A program made the position numbers and the translations under genes. A DNA stretch of 64,000 nucleotides from Niabella ginsenosidivorans. Lineage in GTDB: Bacteria; Bacteroidota; Bacteroidia; Chitinophagales; Chitinophagaceae. The stretch spans positions 5,146,001 through 5,210,000 of the forward strand of contig NZ_CP015772.1 in assembly GCF_001654455.1 (NCBI RefSeq), read 5' to 3'. Positions 21,787 to 26,671 of the stretch are shown in pieces. The notes under the pieces were generated by a model. That model had not been told where the DNA came from, did not search any database, and saw nothing but the letters and a program-made list of their open reading frames with translations. How positions within the stretch are numbered: the first letter of the stretch is position 1; each line of letters begins with the position of its first letter.

Positions 21787-23349
21787 ATGCAAAAGCATAC
21801 ATATATATCCGCTGTTTGCCTGGCAGCTGTCATTTTTTCATCCTGCAAAAAAGAATTCCTGACGCTTTATCCTGAGGGGAACCTGAATGAAGGCGTTTTT
21901 TATAAATCTGATGCAGATTTTCAGCAGGCAATAGTAGGCGCTTACACCCCGCTGAGGGATATTGCCAACGATGCCTTCTGGATGGATGAAATGCGTTCAG
22001 ATAACGCTACCTATGATTATTATGAAAAGGACCGGGGAAGCGCTGCCCGTGAAAATATTTCTACTTTCCTGGATGATGCAACAAATGGCGAAACACTGCT
22101 TCGGTACCGGTCCTGTTATACAGGTATTAACAGAGTGAACGCCATCCTGGATCATTTGTCTGTGAATACAACCATGTCAGATTCTTTAAAGAATTTAATT
22201 ACAGGAGAGGCAAAAGCATTAAGAGGGCATTTTTATTTTGACCTGGTGCGCAATTTCGGAGGCGTGCCGCTTCATTTGCACGAAACCACTAATTATGACG
22301 AGGGCTTCCTTGCAAGGTCAACCGCAGAAGAAGTATATAACCAGATGATCAGCGATCTTAAAGATGCCAGAAACCTGCTGCCACCCCCCTCCTTTGCGGA
22401 TGTACAAACAGGGCGCATCAACAAAGGGGTGGTAACAACCGAACTGGCCGCTGTTTATATGCAACGTAAAGATTATGCTGGCGCGGTACCGTTGCTTCAG
22501 GAAGTAACCAAAATGGGATATGCTCTTTTACCCGTCTTCAGGAATATTTTTGACCCCTCCAACAAAGGAGCCGGCAAAAACAGGGAACTGATCTTTGACG
22601 TGCAATACCAGTCCGGCACCACCGGTCAGTCCAGCGCATTTATATACCGGTTTATACCTAACATGCCTTCAACAAAACTCCTGCTGGGTGTGGATTTTAA
22701 TGTGAGCGGCTATGGCGGCTGGGATGTGCCTACCGATGATTTAATGAGTGTTTTTGAAGCGGGTGACAGCCGTTTGGATGCATCAATAGGCGTTGTGGAA
22801 GGGCATATGGGCGATAACCAGGATTTTGTGGCAGATACCCTGGTAAGCATCGTTAATTATAAACCCAAAGCCGGGGTTATTGTAAAATATTTCAACAAAA
22901 AATATTATTACCCGCCTTATCCGGACCTGAATCAGAATACAGATCAGAACTGGCCTTTGTATCGTTATGGCGATGTATTGCTGATGCTGGCAGACTGCCT
23001 GAATGAAACCGGCGCCTCCGGGCAGGCCTTAACTTACCTCAACCAGATCCGCCAGCGTGCTTTTGGAAACGCCGGCCATGCAGTTACTACAACCGACCAG
23101 ACACAATTGCGCGCCGCCATAGCACTGGAACGCAGGAGGGAGCTCGCATTTGAAAACAAAAGATGGCAGGACCTGATCCGCACAGGCCAGGCGATTCCTG
23201 TAATGACGGCCTATGGCGCCAAAGCAAAACAGAAATATCCCTATATGCTGCCCCAGTCCTTTACAGTAACACAAAACAGGCTCCTGTATCCTATTCCCCA
23301 GAATGAGATGAATTTAAACAAAAAACTGGTTCAGAACCCGGGGTACTAA
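21787..23349 (+). CDS. SusD/RagB family nutrient-binding lipoprotein (second copy)
   Basis: A 520-residue SusD protein. Lipobox SSC with Cys at residue 20 (VIFSSCKKEFLTLYPEGNLNE). TPR-type N-terminal blocks (GEAKALRGHFYFDLVRNFGGVPL, in pieces) and the late SusD block (YGDVLLMLADCLNETG, ALERRRELAFENKRWQDLIR, LYPIPQNEMNLN, LVQNPGY) are present. It is 27 bp behind its SusC and is the last gene of that operon. No obvious terminator follows directly; the first strong hairpin (9-bp stem, 23434-23459) lacks a T-run. The next 1.7 kb is non-coding. Confidence 0.94.
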   Translation: MQKHTYISAVCLAAVIFSSCKKEFLTLYPEGNLNEGVFYKSDADFQQAIVGAYTPLRDIANDAFWMDEMRSDNATYDYYEKDRGSAARENISTFLDDATNGETLLRYRSCYTGINRVNAILDHLSVNTTMSDSLKNLITGEAKALRGHFYFDLVRNFGGVPLHLHETTNYDEGFLARSTAEEVYNQMISDLKDARNLLPPPSFADVQTGRINKGVVTTELAAVYMQRKDYAGAVPLLQEVTKMGYALLPVFRNIFDPSNKGAGKNRELIFDVQYQSGTTGQSSAFIYRFIPNMPSTKLLLGVDFNVSGYGGWDVPTDDLMSVFEAGDSRLDASIGVVEGHMGDNQDFVADTLVSIVNYKPKAGVIVKYFNKKYYYPPYPDLNQNTDQNWPLYRYGDVLLMLADCLNETGASGQALTYLNQIRQRAFGNAGHAVTTTDQTQLRAAIALERRRELAFENKRWQDLIRTGQAIPVMTAYGAKAKQKYPYMLPQSFTVTQNRLLYPIPQNEMNLNKKLVQNPGY

Positions 23350-23433
23350 GTGTCACGAACAAATAATGAATGTTCAGTTTAGTTCTTTGTATATTATTTG
23401 ATGCTTTGCAAAAGATGAGAGTTGGGGTCTCTC

Positions 23434-23459
23434 GTAACCAACATGCAGGTGTTGGTTAC
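23434..23459 (+). other. Strong hairpin in the 3' region of susD
   Basis: GTAACCAAC and GTTGGTTAC form a perfect 9-bp stem with an 8-nt loop. No T-run follows on either strand, so it is not a classical intrinsic terminator. It could be a 3'-end stabiliser or part of an uncharacterised RNA. From here to about 23590 the sequence is purine-rich and has no open frame I trust. Confidence 0.45.
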
Positions 23460-23592
23460 AAACTACTTCTAAGCTGCTGCGGTTAAGTACGTGGAGAGAA
23501 GCGTTAGAAGAAAAGGCGCTGTTAAAAGTGTCAGGTAGGTTGTAGGAAGGCGAAGGCCGGTTCTTCCGGAATTCTGTTGAAAAAAGGGCTGG

Positions 23593-23670
23593 AAATAAAA
23601 AAGGTCCTTCTGTGGAAACAGACTGACCTCTAACGATTGCTTGCCATATGAAAAAAGTTAATAAATAACT
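23593..23670 (-). ncRNA. Structured repeat copy 1 (3' module of small-RNA family)
   Basis: First of four near-identical elements. Read on the minus strand it runs CATATGGCAAGCAATCGTTAG, then a terminator-type hairpin at 23602-23629 (AGGTC / CTGT / ACAG / GACCT, loop TTCC) and a T-run. Upstream of CATATG it does not resemble the other copies, and no TAnnTTTG box lies at the distance seen in copies 2 and 4; a weaker TATATTTA is near 23675. It may be a 3' half-copy, or a shorter RNA. The 5' limit given is approximate. Confidence 0.5.
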
Positions 23671-23922
23671 TCTGTTATAAATATAGTCATATTTCGTGCC
23701 ATTTTAAAATGCTGTTACTGTTATAGTTAAATTTCCGGATAACAACTTCTAAAATCCCGCAACACTGATAGGAATAATCAAATTTGCTTAACAATCAGCA
23801 TTGAAAAAAAACTAACAAAACAATAGTTTTTTTTATTTTTAAAAAAAAATCATTGCTGGCTTAACATTTTAATAATAGAAATCCTATTTTAGTGTTAAAA
23901 TAACCTTAGGAAAACAATTACT

Positions 23923-23948
23923 GATGACCTCTGCGAATTGACCTTGCC
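23923..23948 (-). repeat. Degenerate relic of the small-RNA conserved block
   Basis: On the minus strand GGCAAGGTCAATTCGCAGAG followed by GTCATC resembles the family core GGCAAGCAATCGTTAGAGGT with a few substitutions and one extra base. The covarying terminator stem of the intact copies is missing. Confidence 0.45.
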
Positions 23949-23959
23949 AAAAATGAACA

Positions 23960-23988
23960 GCGAATTTCCTAAGGAGTTCGCTTTTTTT
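23960..23988 (+). terminator. Plus-strand hairpin with T-run, able to compete with an upstream arm
   Basis: GCGAA / TCCT / AGGA / TTCGC forms a two-part stem at 23960-23981 followed by seven T. The sequence TTTCCTAAGG inside it is also a perfect 10-bp complement of CCTTAGGAAA at 23904-23913, so an alternative pairing would break the terminator. No coding gene starts directly downstream. Confidence 0.6.
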
Positions 23989-24003
23989 ATTCCTTTTTGT
24001 GCC

Positions 24004-24126
24004 AAATAAAAAAGGTCCTTCTGTAGAAACAGACTGACCTCTAACGATTGCTTGCCATATGAAAAAACTTAAAAAACTCTGCTCTTTTGCTGTTACCACT
24101 CTGCACTCTTTCTATCTCCTCAATTG
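24004..24126 (-). ncRNA. Candidate small RNA, copy 2
   Basis: The most complete copy. On the minus strand a -33 TTG (24159-24161), a 19-bp spacer and a -7 box TATTTTTG (24132-24139) would start a transcript near 24126. It has a purine-rich 5' half, the conserved core CATATGGCAAGCAATCGTTAG, and an intrinsic terminator (hairpin 24013-24040: AGGTC, CTGT, loop TTCT, ACAG, GACCT, then TTTTTT). Predicted length is about 120 nt. Copies 2, 3 and 4 can be aligned over nearly the whole length on this strand. The family is not one I recognise, and start and strand are predictions. Confidence 0.65.
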
Positions 24127-24458
24127 CTACACAAAAATAATAAGCGTTCTTACGCACACAAACACAATATAGACGGCATTCTATTACTTTCAATGAGTAA
24201 AAAAACAGGTAAAATGCAGTCATAGCCTGGGTTTTAGGGCAAAAGATTAATTATATCCAACTGTATCTGAAGAAACAGATATTTTATTGAAAAATGTATA
24301 AATAAATCAGAAATCGATGGAGAATATCAAAAACTTTAAAAAAACTTTACAGAAAGTAAGATACTGTTAAAAAATACCGCTAATTTAGTTGCCTGAAATC
24401 AATTAACTTTTTATTAACCATATAAGTTATTGACTAAGAAAGTAACATTTGTTATTTG

Positions 24459-24482
24459 ATGACCTCTAAGTTTGGTTTGCCT
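24459..24482 (-). repeat. Second degenerate relic of the conserved block
   Basis: On the minus strand GGCAAACCAAACTTAGAGGT followed by CATC matches the core at most positions. It has no terminator hairpin behind it, so it is probably a dead copy. Confidence 0.45.
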
Positions 24483-24575
24483 CTGACGGTTGCTTTTTTC
24501 CTCCCCCTAATCTAATGATAAGGCTAAAATCCGGAAACGAAATTTCCCCGGTTTAAACAGGACCGGCAGGGATTA

Positions 24576-24700
24576 AAATAAAAAAGGTCTTTCTGTAGAA
24601 ACAGACTGACCTCTAACGATTGCTTGCCATATGAAAAACTTCAAAAATATCTTATCACAAACCCTGATTGCCTGTTGCACTTAATTCCTTATAGATCCTC
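24576..24700 (-). ncRNA. Candidate small RNA, copy 3
   Basis: Same core and hairpin as copy 2 (hairpin 24585-24612, with one change in the internal loop, AAA for AAG). The 5' half aligns with copies 2 and 4 on the minus strand (TTGTG, a purine-rich stretch, AAGTGCAACA, GGCAATCA). The promoter position holds only a degenerate box around 24700, so this copy may be weak or silent. Confidence 0.55.
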
Positions 24701-24777
24701 ACAATCAGGTTATTTTATGTTTAGTATGACGCTAAATTGGTAAAACATCTTCACCGAAAATGTTAAAAGATTACTAA

Positions 24778-24902
24778 AACAAAAAAAGGTCCTTCCGTAG
24801 AAACGGACTGACCTCTAACGATTGCTTGCCATATGAAAAAACTTAAAAATCTTGTTTGTGCTGCCTACGGCTTTTGTCTCACTTTATCATTCCCTTCAAT
24901 CA
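24778..24902 (-). ncRNA. Candidate small RNA, copy 4
   Basis: On the minus strand a -7 box TATCTTTG lies at 24908-24915, 120 bp from the terminator stem; in copy 2 the same distance is 118 bp. The core is identical. In the hairpin (24787-24814) the inner stem reads CCGT/ACGG instead of CTGT/ACAG, a compensated pair change. The terminator T-run follows. It is divergent from the alpha-solenoid gene that starts at 25094. No -33 TTG at standard spacing was found. Confidence 0.62.
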
Positions 24903-25079
24903 CAACACAAAGATACGGGCTTAATATATCCTGTTCCTAACCAACAATTGGGCTGCAGTAGCATGGCTAAGGTGTTATAAAAACAATAAAACCCGCTACA
25001 GCACTGTGTTTTGGGCTGTTTTATGTCAGATGCCCAAGGCTATTTTTAAGGATTCTGCTGTTTGTGTAGAGATAGCCGT

Positions 25080-25087
25080 TAAATTTG
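25080..25087 (+). promoter_or_regulatory. -7 box (TAAATTTG) six bases before a start codon
   Basis: It matches TAnnTTTG, and only six bases separate it from the ATG at 25094. Transcription would start at or within a base or two of the start codon, giving a leaderless mRNA. Confidence 0.5.
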
Positions 25088-25093
25088 TGTATT

Positions 25094-26671
25094 ATGCCAA
25101 GCAAGCCCGGAGATATACTTTTTCAGTTGATAAAATCCTTGGAGAAATCTGAAAAAAGGCATTTTAAGCTCTATATTACCCGTAGTTCCGGGAATGAGGA
25201 TCTTAAAGTGATCAAATTGTTTGATGCGCTGGATAAAATGCCCCAGTATGATGAAAAAATGCTGCTGAAGAAGCTTAAGGATGTTACCAAGCCCCAGTTG
25301 TCTAATTTAAAATCACATTTATACCGGGAAATTCTGGCCGGACTGAGATTGCTGAAAAGTAGCGAAAGTCTTGATCTTCAACTAAATGAATTGTTTGATA
25401 CGGCACATATCCTTTACAAAAAAGGTTTGTTTTACCAAAGCCTGCGGGTAATTGATAAGGCAAAGGAAATGGCCAGCCTGAACCAGAAATTCTTTTTCCT
25501 GCCCCAGATCCTTTCGCTTGAAAAGCGTATTGAAGCATTAAATGTTACAGACAGTTTTGTAAGCCGCATGGATGAGCTGGCGGATGAATCCAATGAGGCG
25601 AACACGAAGCTGAATATGATCACACGCCTTTCCAACCTTTCTTTGCAGATGTATGGTTTTTTTATTGCCAACGGCCATGCCCGTAATGAGGCAGAAGAGG
25701 AAAAGGTAAAAAAGTTTTTCAAACAGAACCTCCCCTCAGGTTCTGCCCAGCAGGAAGGGTTTTATGAACGGCTGTATTATTACCAGAGTTATACCTGGTA
25801 CGCTTTTATACGGCAGGATTTTTTGCTCTACTACCGGTTTGTGCGGAAGTGGGTAGATCTTTTTTATGAAAAGCCCAATATGCAGCGTGCAGAAACGGGC
25901 CATTTTATAAAAGGGTATCACAACCTGCTGAATGCGCACTTTGACCTTAGGAACTACCAGCAGTTCAGTATTGACCTGCATAAGTTTGAGGAATTCAGTC
26001 ATACCAAGCGGGTGCAGAGCAATGAAAATTTCAGGGTACAGTCTTTCGTTTATATTGCCAGTGCCAAGATCAATTATTTTACAATAACCGGGCAAACAGC
26101 GGCGGGGTTAAAAGAAGTGCCCTATATAGAGGATAAGCTGTCAGAATACGCTATATTCCTGGACCGTCACCGGGTGATGGTGATCAATTATAAGATAGCG
26201 ATGCTGTATTTCCTGTCGGGGGACTATAGCACCAGTATTGATTATCTGCAAAAGATCATCAATGACTCATCGGAGTTAAGGACTGATCTTCAATGCTATG
26301 CGCGCCTGGTGCACCTGCTGGCCCATTATGAAATGGGTAATCTGGAGCTGATGGACTCGCTGACCCGTTCCGTTTTCCGCTATATGTCCAAAATGAAGAA
26401 CCTTACTGTTATAGAGCAGGAGATCTTCCGGTTTTTCAGGGGCTCTTTCCGGTTTACAAAAAATGAGCTGAAACCGGAATTTGCTAAGTTCCTGAATAAG
26501 GTAAAGCACCTGGAAGGAAATCGCTTTGAAACCCGTTCCTTTGCTTACCTGGACATTATTTCCTGGCTGGAAAGCAAGGTAGAAGGCAAATCCATGCGCA
26601 AAATAATAGAGGAAAAATTCCGTAAAAGCAAGCGGAGCAAAAATGTGGTGCCCGTAGAGGCAGATCAGTAG
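25094..26671 (+). CDS. Alpha-solenoid (TPR-like) cytosolic protein of unknown function
   Basis: About 525 residues, no signal peptide and no membrane segment. The start is the ATG of MPSKPGDILF; three codons upstream begin with TTG inside the promoter box. The protein is almost entirely amphipathic helices in pairs, with TPR-like signatures in the second half (MLYFLSGDYSTSIDYLQKII, YARLVHLLAHYEMGNLELMD in pieces). The C terminus is basic (EEKFRKSKRSKN). Proteins of this size and pattern are widespread in Chitinophagaceae but have no assigned role that I know. It probably serves as a scaffold. Convergent with the next gene, 11 bp apart. Confidence 0.7.
   Translation: MPSKPGDILFQLIKSLEKSEKRHFKLYITRSSGNEDLKVIKLFDALDKMPQYDEKMLLKKLKDVTKPQLSNLKSHLYREILAGLRLLKSSESLDLQLNELFDTAHILYKKGLFYQSLRVIDKAKEMASLNQKFFFLPQILSLEKRIEALNVTDSFVSRMDELADESNEANTKLNMITRLSNLSLQMYGFFIANGHARNEAEEEKVKKFFKQNLPSGSAQQEGFYERLYYYQSYTWYAFIRQDFLLYYRFVRKWVDLFYEKPNMQRAETGHFIKGYHNLLNAHFDLRNYQQFSIDLHKFEEFSHTKRVQSNENFRVQSFVYIASAKINYFTITGQTAAGLKEVPYIEDKLSEYAIFLDRHRVMVINYKIAMLYFLSGDYSTSIDYLQKIINDSSELRTDLQCYARLVHLLAHYEMGNLELMDSLTRSVFRYMSKMKNLTVIEQEIFRFFRGSFRFTKNELKPEFAKFLNKVKHLEGNRFETRSFAYLDIISWLESKVEGKSMRKIIEEKFRKSKRSKNVVPVEADQ

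Follow-up and report, generated by a model that had tools for sequence, protein, structure and literature searches.

Four closely similar blocks of DNA stand in tandem between a susD gene and an alpha-solenoid gene of the soil bacterium Niabella ginsenosidivorans. What do they encode, and how would their product act? A preliminary description had taken them for a multi-copy small RNA (sRNA) locus. We analysed the whole surrounding stretch of 64,000 nts, here called the window (5146001-5210000 of a 5.63-Mb single contig), and compared it with related genomes. The array consists of four minus-strand predicted sRNA genes of 75–120 nts, members of a Chitinophagaceae-wide RNA family. Three features go beyond the preliminary description: a divergent solenoid partner, copies in lipoprotein 3′UTRs and a family-wide spread.

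Blocks, terminators and promoter boxes of the array

The blocks were found where they had been described, on the minus strand at 23597-23664 (copy 1), 24008-24075 (copy 2), 24580-24646 (copy 3) and 24782-24849 (copy 4), with start-to-start distances of 411, 572 and 202 nts. Over an ungapped stretch of 85 nts, copies 2–4 are 82, 84 and 85% identical to copy 1, and a 24-nt core, CATATGGCAAGCAATCGTTAGAGG, has the same letters in 4/4 copies. 3′ of each core, on the minus strand, come a G+C hairpin and then six or seven T in a row, so that the intrinsic terminators reported earlier hold for all four blocks. One stem pair of the copy 4 terminator is altered on both sides, as read from the repeat alignment.

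The predicted sRNA of copy 4 (24781-24902, minus strand, about 120 nts with a 5′ end placed from the box) includes the core at 24835-24812, a terminator stem reaching 24788 and a U tract at 24787-24781. Its promoter −7 box TATCTTTG lies at 24915-24908, and the same box type precedes other Niabella copies. Similarly, the predicted sRNA of copy 2 (24008-24126, minus strand, again about 120 nts as counted from its box) carries the core at 24061-24038, a terminator to 24014, a U tract at 24013-24008 and a −7 box TATTTTTG at 24139-24132, with a TTTG 19 nts farther upstream. Copy 1 would be of a short-leader type (23597-23672, minus strand, about 75 nts by its presumed 5′ end; core 23650-23627, terminator to 23603, U tract 23602-23597); its −7 box TATATTTA (23678-23685, minus strand) is degenerate, and several related Niabella genomes have an intact TATCTTTG there. 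For the copy 3 block (core 24633-24610, terminator to 24586, U tract 24585-24580, all minus strand) no promoter was identified, and no convincing box was seen at the distance equivalent to that in copies 2 and 4. The TAnnTTTG boxes previously noted for copies 2 and 4 are therefore present, and they are the only intact ones of the window's copies. They lie 78 nts (copy 2) and 80 nts (copy 4) before the core start, against 35 nts for the degenerate box of copy 1; the earlier figures of 118 and 120 give the same positions, with the stem's 3′ arm as the end point. Of the alignment of copies 2–4 upstream of the block, also claimed earlier, the part concerning copies 2 and 4 stood best, and copy 3 could be aligned by eye only weakly.

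The surrounding DNA, first thought to be otherwise gene-free, is indeed devoid of long ORFs but holds other elements. Degenerate extra core copies on the minus strand at 24460-24498, perhaps a decayed copy, show no visible terminator, and similar ones occur at three other loci (L014, L016 and L018); a further degenerate core was read from the sequence at 23925-23948 (minus strand). Between the susD stop and the array, on the plus strand at 23417-23536, we also observed a full-length match of 67.8 bits to RF01999 (group II intron D1-D4-2), with no matching 3′ intron domain among the Rfam matches. Nothing else in the window reached an Rfam gathering threshold. The other Rfam matches at E up to 5 in 23000-25200 were all under gathering scores and the blocks themselves had none; the preliminary description likewise knew of no described family with this core. 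PADLOC gave no match.

Conservation of core, terminator and promoter in Chitinophagaceae

A search with the 68-nt block at E up to 0.1 recovered 40/59 genomes (own genome included), some by short stretches only. Within the genus, 17/17 genomes, own included, gave 4–7 matches each, some short, and the block is, as had been argued, not a random repeat. A covariance model, the search suggested in the preliminary description, was built from 37 diverse copies and found the element at E up to 0.01 in 104/147 Chitinophagaceae genomes, two of which were positive only at E 0.007–0.008. Positive genomes mostly have 1–4 copies and up to 10, and the own genome has only the four array copies at this threshold. 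The order sample (198 genomes) gave 31 positives, 29 in the same family and two others at E 3.6e-4 and 5.5e-4; the phylum sample (395 genomes) gave 13, 11 in the family and two others at E 3.2e-4 and 3.8e-4, the family, order and phylum samples overlapping. The covariance-model signal thus extends only weakly outside the family. A record scan that requires an exact 19-mer found at least 80 records and is no census: among the 80 listed, 61 name Chitinophagaceae, Chitinophagales or genera which we take to be assigned there, 17 are labelled only Bacteroidetes, Bacteroidota, Sphingobacteriales or Sphingobacteriia, and two are a MAG labelled Flavobacterium (L042) and one labelled Pedobacter (L094). 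Separately, a contig of a viral collection (L152:3767-3850) has the 19-mer and, 3′ of it, a terminator that shares the GTTTCTAC loop.

Since invariance of the core is partly built into loci fetched by pattern, we checked it in 30 loci fetched via the neighbouring protein. The core was perfect in 26, with one mismatch in three and two mismatches in one, and a T run followed it in 30/30. The terminator stem covaries: 95.4% of cells are paired, 7/9 pairs have changes on both sides, and doubly changed cells number 47, against 11.1 in shuffles and 3–13 in slid controls. A weak inner hairpin in the core (consensus fold) rests on near-invariant letters and hence proves nothing, and the core is predicted to be unpaired with a probability of 0.53, barely above the 0.52 of the RNA body.

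For promoter statistics 128 of 197 copies were used, after removal of those with more than one mismatch, flanks below 400 nts or more than 60% upstream identity to a copy already kept. The terminator starts with GAGGTC in 81/128 (standalone type) and otherwise in 47/128. A TAnnTTTG box 25–150 nts upstream was present on the RNA strand of 52/81 standalone-type copies and on the opposite strand of 4/81; the corresponding values for the other 47 copies were 7/47 and 4/47. Together with the covarying terminator, this strand bias supports over many genomes the earlier argument that promoter, body and terminator point to the same strand, as expected of a multicopy sRNA locus. The sRNA reading of the blocks is well supported by these signals, and the locus very probably encodes minus-strand sRNAs. 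We infer minus-strand transcription from these sequence signals.

The promoter counts also bear on a plus-strand reading, in which the blocks would be leader peptides or start regions: on that strand each block ends in ATG then AAA (MKK or MKN), and four ORFs start MKKVNK, MKKLKK, MKNFKN and MKKLKN. These ORFs have only 6–37 codons and are mutually dissimilar past the repeat, and in the 81 standalone-type copies the 400 nts beyond the core have 16 TAnnTTTG boxes on the opposite strand against 66 upstream on the RNA strand, which leaves this reading the least credible of those considered.

The 128 non-redundant copies fall into two recurrent contexts and a remainder. The upstream neighbour of 51 encodes, on the opposite strand, one homologous solenoid protein; 24 lie 3′ of a small lipoprotein-like ORF, starting MKKLLFVLALGAFAAC and rich in D, T, A and K; 53 are in neither context, some of these being array copies that lie closest to another copy. 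At seven loci (six being L034, L058, L061, L064, L095 and L122) we observed a gene for a presumably asparaginase-like protein, which lies 94–199 nts 3′ of the sRNA and has its orientation. The preliminary description had considered that the block might be a repeat carried by transposons into unrelated contexts; this is not what the copies show. Mobile or repetitive DNA of the REP or MITE kind, without RNA function, would account for a multicopy tandem array, for copies outside the two contexts and for a similar core and terminator on a viral-collection contig. Against such dispersal, 75/128 copies sit in the two recurrent contexts, boxes are biased to one strand, a near-invariant core stands beside covarying stems and the element is hardly found outside the family; a mobile origin is thus highly improbable.

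Additional modules were seen in the solenoid-adjacent RNAs. GCAATCG occurs 33 times in 32/51 sequences (0.48 in shuffles), AATCGTYA 33 times in 25/51 (0.24 in shuffles) and GTNAGAGG in 23/51, far above shuffles; among 40 other standalone copies, GCAATCG was found in 7 and GTNAGAGG in 2. In other genera a single long RNA with two or three modules is the more usual pattern, in Niabella several predicted RNAs of about 120 nts with one core each; the median predicted length over 38 RNAs, Niabella included, is 161.5 nts with 5′ ends placed from boxes. From this comparison, conservation seems to have acted on how many sites there are rather than on the exact RNA.

The solenoid gene and the lipoprotein mRNA ends

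The divergent gene beside the array (paralog 1; 25094-26671, plus strand, promoter box TAAATTTG at 25080-25087) encodes an alpha-solenoid, TPR-like protein of 525 aa and pI 9.3. Pfam gave no family above cutoff and weak TPR matches only. NCBIfam BT_2802_fam (NF058569), the BT2802/RusR family, aligned over the full length (E 1.1e-35) but at 123.7 bits, far under the curated cutoff of 550, and the protein is accordingly a distant relative of that family and not a member. Its 37 orthologs are 54–94% identical to it, and pI is 8.76–9.60 over the 38 proteins. AlphaFold2 modelled an all-helical solenoid (pLDDT 84.5, pTM 0.73). Foldseek returned TPR superhelices (LGN, Rap, MalT domain III); these superposed poorly, just two reaching E 0.001 or below, and the PDB searched by sequence gave designed TPR proteins only, at E 0.12 or more.

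A solenoid match was present in 112 family genomes, two or more in 78. For paralog 1 (at least 855 bits), the core was on the opposite strand 208–270 nts before the gene start in 30/30 fetched loci. The core was found in 85/85 genomes with paralog 1; 19 of the 104 core-positive genomes have no paralog 1 and 43 genomes have neither, these counts depending on a cutoff chosen after the list was seen, on a profile made from sRNA-side proteins and on related genomes, so that a P value computed from them is no valid test. The back-to-back arrangement of RNA and solenoid in many species suggests a shared regulatory system.

One form of such a system is protein titration. The repeated core would be a protein site, most likely for the divergent basic solenoid, and the RNA would sequester or present this protein in a CsrB-CsrA-like manner; the lipoprotein mRNA 3′UTR would be a second binding site. 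The co-occurrence and fixed divergent spacing just described, the conserved high pI, the presence of more than one module per RNA or more than one RNA per locus, and an invariant core while antisense-target searches found none are all in favour. However, no RNA-binding fold was recognised, the best PDB matches (TPR proteins, LGN and Rap among them) having poor rmsd, and paralog 1 is lacking from the 19 genomes above. We regard titration as a tentative explanation, somewhat less probable than the base pairing discussed below.

Paralog 2 is divergent from a gene which we take, from its sequence, to be 2-isopropylmalate-synthase-like (leuA) in 14/15 loci examined by eye and in the window's own genome. 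Shortly 5′ of the start codon, many genes of both paralogs have an imperfect AAACCCTT-N-AAGGGTTT-like palindrome (for example L057 and L102 for paralog 1, L215 and L268 for paralog 2), and among the 8-mers upstream of paralog 2 AAACCCTT ranks first (16/47). The palindrome is perhaps a common operator of both solenoid paralogs.

The second context was analysed on a wider count of 58 lipoprotein-type copies. The 3′UTR is at least 35 nts long in 43 of them, 41 of these non-redundant; in 15 short 3′UTRs the core directly follows the stop codon, without a GCUUGC loop. In lipoprotein-type copies the core and terminator form the predicted 3′ end of a small lipoprotein mRNA. GGTTACYTT occurs within 110 nts upstream of 53/58 lipoprotein genes, followed by GTATWA 10–26 nts later in 51. 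As a separate observation, GGTTACYTT...GTATWA (L040, L071 of Sediminibacterium, L109 and others) resembles an alternative-sigma promoter. The own genome has neither a lipoprotein-type copy nor a stricter form of this pattern, so that the lipoprotein partner seems missing in the window's species.

The hexamer GCTTGC was found in 27/41 non-redundant long lipoprotein 3′UTRs (shuffles: mean 1.38, maximum 6) and is absent from 14/41; it starts 28–36 nts before the core in 25/27. At the RNA level this hexamer, GCUUGC, exactly complements the GCAAGC of the core. By comparison, the 70 nts before the core contain GCTTGC in 0/51 solenoid-adjacent and 2/53 other copies. GCUUGC often stands in a loop, with stem letters that vary between genomes: stems of at least 4 pairs surround the loop in 19/31 against 36% of shuffles, with an outer stem of 7.35 against 6.50, so a loop structure in the long 3′UTRs is suggestive only. 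A loop of the GCUUGC type also occurs in one genome without paralog 1 (L229).

These 3′UTR copies bring in a third possibility, that the element acts in cis only. Core and terminator would then be a conserved 3′-end module for termination, processing or stability, with the standalone copies as by-products. The terminator-like T run that follows the core in 30/30 loci, and likewise at the lipoprotein mRNA ends, fits this, and the GCUUGC loop could fold back on the core. Yet termination needs neither promoter-driven standalone copies beside the solenoid gene nor extra modules far from the terminator, and we consider a purely cis role unlikely.

Possible base pairing or titration, and known sRNA families

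Searches for mRNA targets found none. Within the own genome, antisense sites for the 17-nt CGATTGCTTGCCATATG with up to 3 mismatches comprised the 4 array sites plus 7 elsewhere, while the reversed control gave 11. None of the 8-mers complementary to the G+C part of the core stood out in 940 start regions (best rank 35/420). Two 7-mers ranked higher in these regions, CTTGCCA (10 against 1.44, rank 3/420) and AACGATT (16 against 4.42, rank 5/420). CTTGCCA was rejected as a target signal: 5/10 of its regions are starts of sRNA-side solenoid genes, where by eye it belongs to their own upstream element. Complementarity to rRNA, in one operon, was no better than in shuffles (best −19.8 kcal/mol; mean of shuffles −20.9 kcal/mol).

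Paralog 2 was considered as a target as well. TTGCTTGC is the third commonest 8-mer upstream of it (12/47 non-redundant loci), often directly after a promoter box. A control weakened this candidate: TTGCTTGC also occurs upstream of paralog 1 in 13/30 loci, where in our reading it is the reverse complement of the 5′ module of the RNA itself, and its presence there makes the strand of the paralog-2 element ambiguous. Upstream of the window's own paralog 2, TTGCTTGC is absent.

We further observed in the leuA/paralog-2 intergenic region (L215, L219-L221, L262 and others) an inverted repeat, AGCAGGCTG...CAACCTGCT, enclosing a promoter box and TTGCTTGC. The element there reads UUGCUUGC on one strand or GCAAGCAA on the other, and GCAAGCAA resembles the sRNA core. 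In six genomes (G000, G018, G020, G096, G123 and G140), TTTG with TTGCTTGC following within 9 nts was found 138 times, against 65 for the reversed pattern; of 46 loci inspected (some sites twice) all but 6 fell within ORFs, and paralog 2 accounted for 2 of those 6.

The best explanation, to which we give a probability of about 0.5, would be a trans-acting multi-site riboregulator whose repeated GGCAAGCAAUCG seed pairs with RNAs bearing GCUUGC. Standalone RNAs would be made from a sigma-ABfr-type promoter, present upstream of most standalone copies, and would act in trans via several sites. The GGCAAGCAAUCG stretch would be the repeated seed, with GCUUGC or UUGCUUGC as candidate partner sites; the loop of the lipoprotein mRNA 3′UTR, with the same core and terminator at its end, would be the only recurrent partner candidate. 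Rbp-like proteins of the RRM type may help in this, and the own genome encodes three RRM_1 proteins. The GCUUGC loop may instead pair within its own RNA, which we counted against base pairing, as we did the scarcity of extra modules in the 40 other standalone copies, the apparent lack of the lipoprotein partner in the window's species and the small difference in unpaired probability between core and body. Overall, base pairing is slightly favoured over protein titration.

A known Bacteroidota family was counted for base pairing by analogy. FopS, as described in PMC11697453, has 14 sRNA members in B. thetaiotaomicron, one of them derived from a 3′UTR. The family has sigma-ABfr promoters, a terminator and a seed that is single-stranded; it binds RbpB and represses translation of SusC-like transporters. 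Like FopS/GibS of Bacteroides in that account, the RNAs predicted here are multicopy paralogs with sigma-ABfr-type promoters, a conserved seed and a terminator; a 3′UTR-derived member and occurrence of the sequence in phage (here a viral-collection contig) are also shared. Unlike FopS, whose seed R1 is at the 5′ end (PMC11697453), the core here abuts the terminator; FopS is described within Bacteroidaceae and the present family is found in Chitinophagaceae; and the solenoid partner seen here has no mention in the accessible text on FopS. Rfam gave no match to FopS at E up to 5, the presence of a FopS model in that Rfam copy being unconfirmed. LhrC of Listeria is likewise reported to consist of sibling sRNAs in several copies (PMC4132741), and differs in phylum and sequence.

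For the titration view, the counterparts would be CsrB and RsmZ. Such protein-titrating RNAs have several copies of one short motif per RNA and redundant genomic copies. A repeated short motif and redundant copies are found here as well, with protein binding hypothetical; their motif is GGA in hairpin loops, in contrast to GGCAAGCAAUCG/GUUAGAGG. A more specific RNA-protein pair, with the solenoid as an RNA-binding regulator, the GGCAAGCAAUCG-repeat RNA as its dedicated titrator and the lipoprotein 3′UTR, through its core and its GCUUGC loop, as a competing cis site, is rather doubtful, less probable than titration taken broadly. If true, a protein of unrelated fold would here run a circuit like that of CsrA/CsrB, and RNA would be suggested as the target of other BT2802-like regulators too. 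BT2802 is presumably rusR. RusR itself is described in PMC12596196.

Literature searches, which covered few subscription journals and top-ranked results, returned nothing relevant on the motif or on RNAs of Chitinophaga, Chitinophagaceae or Niabella, and few Bacteroidota sRNA families outside Bacteroides appear in the literature searched. In the RNA family predicted here the core hardly varies throughout Chitinophagaceae, and Rfam gave no match. A partner gene and a candidate partner RNA are already at hand, which makes its mechanism testable, and deciding between base pairing and titration might show the role of the unexplained BT2802-like solenoid proteins.
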